From Tetradesmus obliquus (lineage: Eukaryota > Chlorophyta > Chlorophyceae > Sphaeropleales > Scenedesmaceae), in NCBI GenBank assembly GCA_030272155.1, contig CP126197.1:186001-250000 (forward strand): a DNA stretch of 64,000 bases. The letters run 5' to 3'. Position 1 is the first letter of the stretch, and every line of letters starts with the position of its first letter. This document shows positions 29,954-62,224 of the stretch, piece after piece. The translations under genes were made by a program, and so were the position numbers. The notes under the pieces are model-generated. The model was not told where the DNA came from. It made no database searches and saw only the letters and a list, made by a program, of their open reading frames with translations.

Positions 29954-30071
29954 ATGTTTGACTTTCTGTCAGCCATCAGGAAGCTTGGTGGTCAGGATCC
30001 TGAGCAGCAGCAGCAGCTGCACGAGGCTGCATCATGGCTGGACGGTGAATGCTGCTGCAGCATGGCACACT

Positions 30072-30119
<48 letters not shown>

Positions 30120-60029: not shown

Positions 60030-60060
<31 letters not shown>

Positions 60061-62224
60061 TGGGTGGGGTCTGCCCACGTTGCACTCGGATGCTTCATGT
60101 GCTGGCTCTGTGAGCATTTTATACCATCTTCGTTGCAGAGTTCCAGCTCAAGGGCTGCCACGTATCCAACTTGCTCGCCTGCAATCGCCTTTTTCCGGCC
60201 GCAGGACCACACCAGCAAGCCCTTCAGCAGGCTGGAGGCCATGGCTGCGGCAGTGTGCGGCTCCGTGACTGATGCCAATGCGCAGCTGGTGGTGGTGCTG
60301 AGTGCCACGGGGCAGGCGCCACGCCTCATCGCCAAGTACAGGCCCTTCGTGCCGCAGGTGGGTGGCTGCTGGGTGCTGCTTTGATGATTGCTGGGGTGAT
60401 TCATTACTGGAGACTCTGCAAAAGTCGGGGTTCATGTGAACGGGGCGCGCAGCATGCATGCTGCTGCGCAGTTTTGCGTCATGTATGGAGGCACACAACG
60501 CGCAGCTGGTGGTGGAGCTCAGCGCCACGCCTCGTCGCCAAGTACAGGCCATTCGTGCCACAGGTGGGCAGCTGCTGCGTTGTGTTTCGTGTGTTGATGT
60601 TTCTGCTACTGCTGCCAAGTACAGGCCCTTTGTGTGGGGTTGCTGGGTTGCTGGCTTGCTGGCTTGCGGGACTGCAAAATTGCTGGATTGTTGGAATGCT
60701 TCGCCTGACAGCAGTGCCAGCCGATGGGGCGCATCAGCTGCCCGCCGCGCAGCGCTGGCAGCTTGTTATGGAAGCACACAACCTGTTATTTGGGCACCTG
60801 CATGCAACGTGGCCTGTGTACGTCTGATAAAGGTGTGTTCAAAGCGGAGCAGACAGCCTGTGCGCATATGCTGCGCCCCAGGCATGGTCTGTGTTGCGGG
60901 GCGCATACAGCAGCTGGGCAGTGCACCCTCGACAAGCACGTCGAGCACCCAAAGTGATGCTGCCGTCACCCCTTCTTCTGCGTTGCCGCACGCGCCGCTG
61001 CGCTGCAGGTGGTGGTCAGCAACAACGCCGTGGTGCTGCGCGAGTCCACCATCCACTTTGGGCAGTACGGCATGCAGGTGGAGGCGCTGGAGGACGCCAC
61101 ACAGCTGGCACTGGCTGCCATGGACTGGGCGCATGAGCGGGTGCGTGTGCATGGCTGTGCGCTGTTGTCGATGCTGTGAATTGACTTGCATTGCTTGCCT
61201 AAGATGATGTGTGGACGCCACGCACCTGGCACTGCAGGCCAGGGGCTGGGCGCATGAGCGTGTGCGTGTGCATGGCTGTGCGCTGTTGTCGATGATGTCA
61301 TTTGACTTGCATTGCCGAGACAGATGGGTAGATGCCAGCCAGCTGGCACTACAGGCCATGGACTGGGCGCATGAGCGGGTGCGCTGGAAGCTCGTTCACT
61401 TTATATGCAGAAATAGATGCGAAGGGATGTGTACAGGATGCGTGATGCGGCATGATGTTCACAGCTGGGCCGGCATATGCTGACAGCAGACTTGGGCTGT
61501 GCACTCTGCAGTCTCTGCAAGCCCGCGGTGGTCCACCTATGGGACTTCACGGCCAGCATCCACCACTCAGTGCTGCCCTGCTGTCACTTGCTGCTCTGCA
61601 CCCTCTCTCCTCTCTCCCCGCAGAAGCTGTGGGGCGGCATGGGCGTGTTGCTGGTACATGCCTGACTGTGCCGATTGCCCTGCTGTCACTGCCCTGCTGT
61701 CACTGCCCTGCTCTGCACCCTCGCTTCTCCCTCCCTGCAGAAGCTGTGGGGCGGCGCGGGCGCAGTGCTGGTACATGCATAGGGATGCCTGCCTCGCCAC
61801 ATATGCCTGACCGTGCAATTTGCCCTGATGTCACTGCTGCTTGTCAACCCTCTCCCTTCTGCAGAAGCTGTGGGGCGGCGTGGGCGCAGTGCTGGTGGTG
61901 GCGGGGCACTACGAGGCCAACGCCGACATGATGCCCACGCTGCGCGCCATCAACATCGGAGGCGACGATGAAGCCGCAGCTGCCGATGCTGCCGCAGACG
62001 TGCTGGGCGCCCTGCAGCTAGAGCATGCCACACCGCCGCATGCTGCAGCGCAGCAGCAGCAGCCAGCTGTTATTCCGGAGGATTTGGCGCCGTTTGTGGT
62101 GGCTCAGGGTGAAGTTGGTGAGGTTGATGAGGCGGAGCTGGTGCGGGCGCTGAGCAGCCGCATGAGCATGCGGCGCGGCAGCATCGGCACGCCGCTGCGG
62201 CGGCAGTTCAGCAAGGCCGCGTGA
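29954..62224 (+). CDS. Giant four-unit pyruvate kinase-like polypeptide
   Basis: Forty-eight exons with phase-consistent GT-AG borders sum to 7,494 nt, or 2,497 residues, with no internal stop. Order: N-terminal extension (residues ~1-154), pyruvate kinase unit 1 (~155-661), degenerate unit 2 (~662-1191), linker (~1192-1252), unit 3 (1253-1775), Gly/Ser-rich linker (1776-1918), unit 4 (1919-2378) and tail (2379-2497). Units 1, 3 and 4 have the motifs [18 protein letters not shown] or SKIE, ARGDLAM and ATQM-ESM, so they should convert phosphoenolpyruvate and ADP to pyruvate and ATP. The junctions between units are ordinary in-phase introns, and no ATG or stop separates units, which argues for one gene. 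Exon coordinates are given under the unit entries. Cytosolic location is likely, as no clear transit peptide is seen. TGTAA follows at 62622. Confidence 0.85.
30637..31045 (+). repeat. Tandem copies of exon 2 end plus donor
   Basis: The last ~40 bases of exon 2, its donor (CAG|GTGAGGGG) and the following CAG-rich intron are repeated three more times, with donors near 30763, 30890 and 31039. The first two repeats have a period of about 127 bp and are nearly identical. Confidence 0.9.
31351..31420. repeat. (GCA)23 tract
   Basis: The longest uninterrupted triplet run in the window, about 70 bp, within the second intron of the giant gene. Confidence 0.95.
36122..36225 (+). repeat. Dispersed repeat, copy 2
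   Basis: In the intron after exon 10. It shares AGGCCTGTCCTTGTC, GGGCTTGCCTGCTTCTGATG and GACTTGT blocks with copies near 17205 and 53455. Confidence 0.6.
36423..36730 (+). repeat. Two copies of exon 11 start
   Basis: Acceptor-linked copies of the [10 protein letters not shown] segment start near 36425 and 36619 ahead of the real exon at 36731. The first preserves about 70 bases of exon. Confidence 0.85.
41344..41811 (+). repeat. Four tandem copies of exon 18 start
   Basis: Copies with acceptor begin at 41344, 41451, 41571 and 41692; the real exon begins at 41812 (period 107-121 bp). Each keeps about 40 bases ([14 protein letters not shown]) then diverges into related intron filler. Confidence 0.92.
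43811..44037 (+). repeat. Two copies of exon 21 start
   Basis: The [15 protein letters not shown] segment with its acceptor recurs near 43812 (about 95 bases conserved) and, shorter, near 43962, before the real exon at 44038. Three copies of the exon's end follow it (about 44344-44690). Confidence 0.88.
45180..45264 (+). repeat. 14-bp minisatellite
   Basis: About six units of TTTGTGCATCTGCT with C/T variation, in the intron before exon 23. Confidence 0.85.
45391..45971 (+). repeat. Four tandem copies of exon 23 start
   Basis: Copies with acceptor begin at 45391, 45527, 45673 and 45808; the real exon starts at 45972. Each encodes [17 protein letters not shown] sequence for 40-70 bases. Confidence 0.92.
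46675..46728. repeat. Interstitial telomere-like CCCTAAA repeats
   Basis: Three consecutive CCCTAAA-type heptamers and several degenerate ones lie within the intron after exon 24. This is the plant/chlorophyte TTTAGGG telomere unit on the opposite strand. Confidence 0.75.
47080..47310 (+). repeat. 44-bp minisatellite
   Basis: About five units, period 44 bp exactly (TGCAGG at 47101, 47145, 47189, 47233, 47277). Each unit contains an ACTTGCAG acceptor-like motif. Confidence 0.93.
47431..47492. repeat. (TTACA)n pentanucleotide repeat
   Basis: A run of TTACA/TTACAT units just upstream of the exon 26 acceptor. The reverse-complement repeat occurs near 59822-59866. Confidence 0.85.
48498..48788 (+). 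repeat. Two copies of exon 28 start
   Basis: Copies of the [18 protein letters not shown] segment begin at 48498 and 48643 before the real exon at 48789. Each ends in a CCC(A/C)GA-ATTGTTTGAC-type filler with several TTTGACC repeats. Confidence 0.9.
50250..50340. repeat. (CCAG)n / (AAGC)n tetranucleotide repeat
   Basis: About 20 tetranucleotide units in the intron after exon 31. Confidence 0.93.
52570..52796 (+). repeat. Two copies of exon 36 start
   Basis: CAG|GTACGGCGTCATCCCC and following bases occur near 52570 and 52672 before the real exon at 52797. The reading [10 protein letters not shown] differs slightly from the real [10 protein letters not shown]. Confidence 0.9.
52940..53260 (+). 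repeat. 107-bp tandem array before exon 37
   Basis: Three units; copies of the KQVVCAL acceptor segment begin at 53047 and 53154, and the real exon at 53261 (period exactly 107). The units are nearly identical, including intron filler. Confidence 0.93.
53455..53550 (+). repeat. Dispersed repeat, copy 3
   Basis: In the intron after exon 37. It shares CCTGTCCTTGTCC, ACGCACGGAAGAGCAT, GGCTTGCCTGCC and GACTTGTAACTTGTAAC blocks with the two other copies. Confidence 0.6.
53852..54280 (+). other. Giant PK: Gly/Ser-rich linker exon between units 3 and 4
   Basis: One 143-codon exon. It starts [15 protein letters not shown] (end of the unit 3 fold), then a flexible Ser/Gly/Arg/Ala-rich stretch with a poly-Gly segment, then [15 protein letters not shown] and ITLEDILQ leading into unit 4. 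The length and composition suggest a hinge that could let unit 4 pack independently. Confidence 0.75.
54287..54309. repeat. G23 homopolymer just inside an intron donor
   Basis: The run begins six bases after the donor of exon 38 (GTGGGA-G23). Confidence 0.95.
54975..55910 (+). repeat. Seven tandem copies of exon 40 start
   Basis: Acceptor-linked copies begin at 54975, 55113, 55252, 55390, 55516, 55655 and 55784; the real exon begins at 55911. Period is 126-139 bp. Two subtypes alternate ([15 protein letters not shown] and [15 protein letters not shown]), suggesting two-unit duplication steps. Confidence 0.95.
57255..57501 (+). repeat. Two copies of exon 43 start
   Basis: The IREVLDRS segment recurs near 57270 and 57383. 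The second is nearly exact, with TTGAGGTAAAC replacing the exon continuation, and is followed by a copied CTG tract. Confidence 0.9.
57838..58500 (+). repeat. Three copies of exon 43 end
   Basis: The [13 protein letters not shown] segment and its donor recur near 57838-57930, 58187-58258 and 58415-58496. Confidence 0.9.
58053..58080. repeat. Near-perfect inverted repeat (hairpin)
   Basis: CACCCCCCGCTTAG and CTAAGCGGGGGTG face each other with almost no loop. A shorter palindrome (GATGGT-GAT-ACCATC) adjoins on the left. Confidence 0.8.
59822..59866. repeat. (ATGTA)n pentanucleotide repeat
   Basis: Reverse complement of the TTACA repeat at 47431. It lies just before a copied exon 46 acceptor (59875). 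Confidence 0.85.
61865..62224 (+). other. Giant PK: final exon and C-terminal tail
   Basis: The exon starts [19 protein letters not shown], the last strand of the unit 4 fold, then an acidic/Ala/Gln-rich tail ending in a basic Arg/Ser segment ([17 protein letters not shown]), stop TGA at 62222-62224. Two copies of the exon start (about 61624 and 61741) precede it and two copies of the exon end follow the stop. Confidence 0.8.

Follow-up and report, generated by a model that had tools for sequence, protein, structure and literature searches.

Does a single nuclear gene of the green alga Tetradesmus obliquus encode four pyruvate kinase (PK) units in one polypeptide, or do four PK genes stand in a row? 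The question is raised by a 64,000-nucleotide stretch of contig C7 (CP126197.1; C7:186001-250000), hereafter the window, whose own numbering is used throughout. We analyzed this window together with the genome to which it belongs (104.66 Mb, 17 contigs). The activity of a PK is linked to its oligomeric state, and among the structure matches listed, the PKs are single-unit chains that must assemble. We find that all four units of the window are probably fused in one gene, and that one of them appears to have lost its active site.

One gene or several

Four PK units lie in order on the plus strand, as a preliminary description of this DNA had proposed. We labeled them U1 to U4, and the junctions between successive units J12, J23, and J34 (Table 1). 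Exon matches to PF00224 form four groups. A domain search of the spliced units likewise returns four PKs, all over both curated cut-offs (PF00224/PF02887 bits: U1, 399/57; U2, 224/36; U3, 401/35; U4, 402/49). Exon-level listings of PF02887 include U1, U2, and U4 but not U3, and the U4 match is below the cut-off. Linkers, with ends judged by eye, are ~46-47 amino acids long between U1 and U2 and between U2 and U3, and ~100-145 between U3 and U4. Seven further PK loci are present in the genome, each single-unit in the predicted models.

Gene models were built with a homology-guided, splice-aware profile decoder that permits gene breaks, run at five intron penalties (-10 to -18). Its reference was a PK paralogue on contig C3, spliced by hand into six exons (508 amino acids). 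A genome-contig scan with the C3 protein gave 86 bacterial relatives, of which 80 were kept (41-56% identical); six of these 80 loci passed a length and motif filter, and only those entered the profile and the tree. The profile (C3 PK plus the six bacterial PKs) was trimmed from 584 to 480 positions.

At penalty -14, the decoder predicts one gene at 29954-62224 with 55 exons and 2,600 amino acids; at -16, one gene with the same ends, 51 exons, and 2,566 amino acids. At -12 and -10 a single gene starts at 29864 (2,809 and 2,840 amino acids, respectively), and the -10 gene ends at 63889. The preliminary description had given one in-phase GT-AG model, without exon coordinates: its start ATG at 29954 and the stop ending at 62224 are thus reproduced at -14 and -16, but its 48 exons and 2,497 residues are not. 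Forty exons are identical at all five penalties, and 48 are identical at -12, -14, and -16. Among the 55 exons of the -14 model, 15 differ among penalties, including the first exon, 31088-31825, three at 38940-40096, and 53852-54280. GC content is mostly 55-63% across the window, and the 54 introns of the -14 model average ~453 bp; a published table for T. obliquus lists 57% GC, a mean intron of 462 bp, and 7.8 introns per gene (PMC5966456). Searches of the window for tRNAs and Rfam families gave zero matches.

The decoder favors fusion, although it does so elsewhere too. With breaks permitted, it picks one gene at four of the five penalties (-10 to -16). With a 130-base grid and penalty -14, the cheapest forced splits at J12, J23, and J34 come to 9.0, 5.4, and 11.3 nats, whereas forced breaks within units cost 32-60 nats (n = 11, penalty -14). 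At six other loci, its one-gene path crossed the tested boundary; by-eye naming of the genes thus joined gives, for example, an RPL27A-like gene after the C1 PK and an aldo-keto-reductase-like gene after a C12 PK. The costs of forcing a break at these loci were 2.0 (C1m), 1.0 (C12m), 5.3 (C8m), 0.5 (L001), 0.7 (C12p), and 9.7 nats (C15), at boundaries assumed from predicted models, that of C15 possibly not being a real gene boundary. The crossed control boundaries and the overlap in costs rule out the decoder score as decisive proof of fusion. Other evidence was therefore sought in the junctions themselves.

Coding signal continues upstream of where a separate gene could begin. The portion of each bridging exon before its first usable ATG scores as coding-like in frame: 36 codons at J12 (log-likelihood ratio, LLR, 12.5), 26 at J23 (LLR 9.5), and 54 at J34 (LLR 6.5), with 0.33%, 0.53%, and 0.67% of null windows scoring as high, respectively. 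The null comprises stop-free intronic windows after AG, which overlap one another and include intronic exon copies. For one control, exon 42, the frame scored was not the right one; its third frame gives an LLR of 14.3.

Spacing leaves little room for gene boundaries. Reading through the last donor of U1, U2, and U3 meets stops at 39592, 47175, and 53391, from which it is 365, 353, and 460 nt to the next bridging exon; this is the whole possible intergenic space at J12, J23, and J34. We looked there for TGTAA, the polyadenylation signal of chlorophytes, and found none in the J12 and J23 gaps. Across the gene span, TGTAA occurs 24 times against 13.9 expected from dinucleotides, so its presence alone says little, and we scored only whether each possible intergenic gap contains one.

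Several observations weigh against a gene of four units. The decoder is fusion-prone, its control costs (0.5-9.7 nats) overlap those of the junctions (5.4-11.3), and its splice model is self-trained, the splice and codon tables having been retrained on its own predictions from eight PK loci. At penalty -18 it returns three genes, with breaks between U1 and U2 (39592/40068) and inside U3 (49901/49914). TGTAA occurs at 40195, in the intron following the J12 bridging exon, and in J34 at 53538 and 53545, after the read-through stop and ahead of an ATG at 54086. No spliced retrocopy was found across J12 or J23 in a DNA search, or across J34 in a protein search; the sequences matched were, besides the C3 PK, the junction exons, copies close to them, and their homologues in other units. 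Furthermore, according to a passage in a 2026 review, the PKs of Selenastrum are homotetramers with chains of 56-57 kDa. The U3/U4 junction is the weakest of the three.

An alternative reading at this junction is a U1-U2-U3 gene that ends at stop 53391, followed by a separate U4 gene starting at ATG 54086 or 54014. Both ATGs are in frame with U4, and the Gly-rich stretch 54086-54202 scores as non-coding by codon usage (LLR -7.1). The sequence upstream is nevertheless coding-like in the U4 frame, both at 53852-54013 (0.67% of 898 null windows as high) and at 53852-54085 (none of 468). The two TGTAA motifs lie ~150 nt past the stop, as they might in such a gene, but just 460 nt before 53852 would have to hold a 3' untranslated region, a promoter, and a 5' end, and the forced split here carries the 11.3-nat cost. 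We consider this arrangement unlikely.

Four separate tandem PK genes that join in frame by chance are improbable. Every unit is a complete PK, and PK_C followed by a stop is the normal end of a PK gene, as in C3; a fusion-prone decoder that breaks between U1 and U2 at -18 also fits this arrangement. The preliminary description had stated that no new ATG occurs between units, which does not hold literally: in-frame ATGs stand in the bridging exons at 40068, 47607, 54014, and 54086, and thus alternative starts exist on paper. Separate genes would, however, need three boundaries, each within 353-460 nt, despite coding-like bridging exons at three of three junctions and J12 and J23 gaps that lack TGTAA. 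Lastly, an assembly artefact or a decaying array (collapsed or expanded repeats, or a pseudogene) is very improbable: the region does hold many local tandem duplications, but identity is only 51-58% among U1, U3, and U4 and 30-33% between U2 and these three, so the units are not assembly copies, and third-position bias (below) indicates constraint.

One gene with four PK units, as first proposed, is thus the reading best supported by decoder, coding, and spacing evidence together. From the same gene-model, coding, and spacing evidence, we infer a single transcript and a single polypeptide.

Active sites, ancestry, and selection

Three units have intact active-site residues and one does not. 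We compared 18 active-site positions in an alignment with the paralogues, using human PKM2 numbering. U1, U3, and U4 match the canonical C3 enzyme at 18 of 18, retaining the catalytic Lys, both Mg ligands, the Thr of ATQ, and the K+ site residues. These three units should therefore, as predicted from their residues, catalyze phosphoenolpyruvate (PEP) + ADP -> pyruvate + ATP. In U2, 12 of the 18 are changed (S77K, D113S, T114I, K115R, R120S, K270Q, E272D, A292S, G295T, D296N, T328G, and S362M), while R73, N75, E118, R294, Q329, and E364 are retained. The changes replace the catalytic Lys with Gln, the Mg ligands Glu and Asp with Asp and Asn, and the PEP-site Thr with Gly, and remove three K+-site residues and R120. 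The Mg-ligand Asp is also absent (Asn, His, or Ser) in four other PKs of the genome (C1m, C8m, C12m, and C12p), so its loss alone would not mean inactivity; it is the loss of Lys together with both ligands that points to inactivity. The original suggestion of three active-looking units and one inactive-looking unit is thereby borne out residue by residue.

The four units form their own group among the PKs of this genome. Before tree building, predicted false fusions were cut from C1m, C12m, C12p, and C8m, and tails from U3 and U4. U1 to U4 group at 94/94, just under the tool's marked-support level, with U2 on a very long branch. C1m, C8m, C12m, and C12p join C3 at 98/94 in the plant-type cytosolic clade, and U1 to U4 fall outside it. 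A further pair, the plastid-type-looking C15 and C8p, is also placed apart from U1 to U4. Intron positions are shared between U1 and U4 (two, one of them within the N-terminal extension), U1 and U3 (three), and U3 and U4 (two); U2 has none in common with the other units. The four units probably originated by tandem duplication within their own PK lineage.

Two other PK loci have features of their own. C12 carries two PKs, 72% identical and ~35 kb apart on opposite strands, in which RGN and RGH replace RGD. The plastid-type-looking PK on C8 (5.03-5.05 Mb) has His at the ATQ Thr position and a ~10.7 kb intron in its predicted model.

Introns of the predicted gene hold partial copies of its exons, against which selection can be gauged unit by unit. 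We used 75 such copies, excluding the CAG-rich exons 3-7; copies of one exon are non-independent. Of 397 differences between exons and their copies, 240 are at third positions; for U2 alone the count is 76 of 122. At G/C sites of U2, 44 of 328 third positions differ versus 30 of 461 first and second positions (p = 0.0009). The same third-position excess is found in U1 (p = 2e-5) and U4 (p = 0.011), and it is not significant in U3 (p = 0.34). Given this bias, U2 appears to be conserved as a protein, that is, under purifying selection. Judged from sequence, U2 is catalytically dead yet selectively maintained.

The active units also share stretches of nearly identical sequence. In a 40-codon window at the barrel start, U1, U3, and U4 are 95-100% identical, and 84-89% at four-fold sites, compared with 59-66% at the four-fold sites of whole units, although single windows vary widely. 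The longest identical DNA runs are 61 bp (U1/U3), 57 bp (U1/U4), and 60 bp (U3/U4), and one identical run of 45 bp sits in introns of U1 and U3. U2 has no identical run of at least 20 bp with any other unit. Runs mostly of CAG/CTG words were excluded from these comparisons. The shared runs and four-fold identity suggest gene conversion among U1, U3, and U4.

U1 has an insertion in PK_C, a 12-residue loop that fits the EF-hand loop pattern. A Pfam search listed no EF-hand match up to E 10, and we call the loop only EF-hand-like. The exon has an intronic copy at 37786-37855 with its own version of the 12-residue loop.

Assembly of the predicted chain

The predicted product would be a PK polypeptide of ~2,570-2,600 amino acids with four full units joined by linkers, encoded by one nuclear gene. 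With its four units and three linkers, two of them short and the other flexible, one chain could supply a whole tetramer. The units most likely assemble within one chain, or between a few chains, via the usual PK tetramer contacts, which would fix the enzyme at three active units to one inactive. A one-chain pseudo-tetramer of fixed stoichiometry, as the preliminary description had envisaged, is plausible from PK biochemistry.

Duplication and fusion with loss of one site is familiar from other glycolytic enzymes. Mammalian hexokinases I-III and eukaryotic phosphofructokinase-1 (PFK-1) arose by internal duplication and fusion, with one copy non-catalytic or regulatory. Like the predicted algal PK, they are whole-enzyme fusions with one non-catalytic or regulatory copy, but they have two copies rather than four and belong to other families. 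By analogy with them, U2 is most likely a structural or regulatory subunit. Oversized PK models may also exist in green-alga databases.

Canonical PKs (C3, 3eoe, and yeast 1a3w) have the same barrel (PF00224) and C-terminal domain (PF02887) as each of U1 to U4. The best solved relative by sequence is 3eoe for U4 (407 bits) and 1a3w for U2 (222 bits), among the best 60 of ~100 matches each; the PDB chains in these sets have 470-606 residues, in contrast to four units, one inactive-looking, in one predicted chain. A viral-contig scan with U4 gave zero relatives. A plasmid tblastn gave 169 records, all below 60% identity, and the eight of 169 listed are all bacterial. In the text returned by a literature search aimed at multi-unit PKs, none was found described. 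The plant plastid PK, in the accounts found, is an alpha/beta hetero-oligomer, and thus likewise mixes PK subunits in one assembly; its subunits are free and come from separate genes, unlike the single predicted algal chain.

The four units might instead act as independent beads of one fused protein, or pair with other chains, an alternative that concerns the assembly step only. It is possible but doubtful: the U3-U4 linker is long and of low complexity, as beads would allow, but the other two linkers are short, and four units is exactly the number in a homotetramer, the commonest form of PK according to a passage in a FEMS review. The same review cites a PK homodecamer (Lin et al. 1989).

A pseudo-tetramer could make sense of an early account of a green-alga PK. 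Two citing papers call the enzyme of Knowles et al. (1989, FEBS Letters) monomeric; a four-in-one chain would explain a monomer, and the link is a lead only. We offer tentatively a fuller account in which the dead U2, and perhaps a loop of U1 that would bind calcium, set the activity of three conversion-homogenized catalytic units in a pseudo-tetramer; this would be the 1989 enzyme, and PK would join hexokinase and PFK as a third committed glycolytic enzyme that evolved by internal fusion with one site lost. If so, single-residue changes at fixed stoichiometry could show what each site, and a pseudoenzyme subunit, contributes.

Feature positions, local duplications, and flanking sequence

Table 1. 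Features of the fused PK gene predicted in the window
Feature	Position	Strand	Basis or remark
N-terminal leader	29954..32256	+	Start codon 29954; Ser-rich exons; last exon 32112-32256 holds the U1 N-terminal extension; decoder
127-bp tandem repeat encoding a 14-residue motif	within leader 29954..32256	+	TRF
U1, PK barrel and PK_C, active-site residues intact	32618..39572	+	Pfam, residues, exons
U1 exon with EF-hand-like 12-residue loop inserted in PK_C	37586..37718	+	No Pfam EF-hand match listed up to E 10
Bridging exon U1-U2, linker and U2 N-terminal extension	39958..40096	+	Decoder, 4/5 settings; coding score
U2, degenerate active site (K270Q, E272D, D296N, T328G, and others), apparent purifying selection	40606..47037	+	Pfam, residues, selection tests
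Bridging exon U2-U3	47529..47621	+	Identical in five of five decoder settings; coding score
U3, active-site residues intact	48018..53367	+	Pfam, residues, exons
Bridging exon(s) U3-U4, Gly/Ser-rich linker and U4 N-terminal extension	53852..54280	+	Decoder; 54076-54201 coding or intron
U4, active-site residues intact, C-terminal tail and stop codon	54574..62224	+	Pfam, residues, exons
Three intronic partial copies of the ARGDLA exon (57502-57649)	57834..58501	+	Splice-site-straddling duplicates
TGTAA, candidate polyadenylation signal	62622..62626	+	~400 nt downstream of the stop

Partial exon copies are widespread in the introns of this locus. Within 3 kb, 36 of the 55 predicted exons have one (31 of 50 when the CAG-rich exons 3-7 are set aside). 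The copies usually straddle their own splice site, acceptor copies lying upstream and donor copies downstream; examples, besides those of the ARGDLA exon (57834-58501), are at 34763-35316, 43809-44573, and 52552-52708. Of 93 local repeat pairs, 58 overlap a splice site, versus 30.8 +/- 5.1 when the exon map is shifted (p 0.001), an excess that slower exon evolution may inflate by easing detection of such pairs. C12p and C8p (p 0.001) and C12m (p 0.013) show the same excess; C15 (p 0.77) and C8m (p 0.16) do not, and in the C3 and C1 PK genes no pairs of this kind were found.

Tandem repetition also occurs around the stop codon and at the U2/U3 junction. At 62177-62454, the last coding stretch and stop recur past the stop in one almost complete copy (96%) and one partial copy (80%), with a 114-bp period. 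A 44-bp tandem repeat of 6.1 copies lies at 47043-47309, in the intron at the U2/U3 junction. Upstream of the PK gene, two coding-like segments (22415-23577 and 27249-27689) resemble, by eye, a nucleotide-sugar epimerase/reductase and the C-terminus of an endonuclease/exonuclease/phosphatase.

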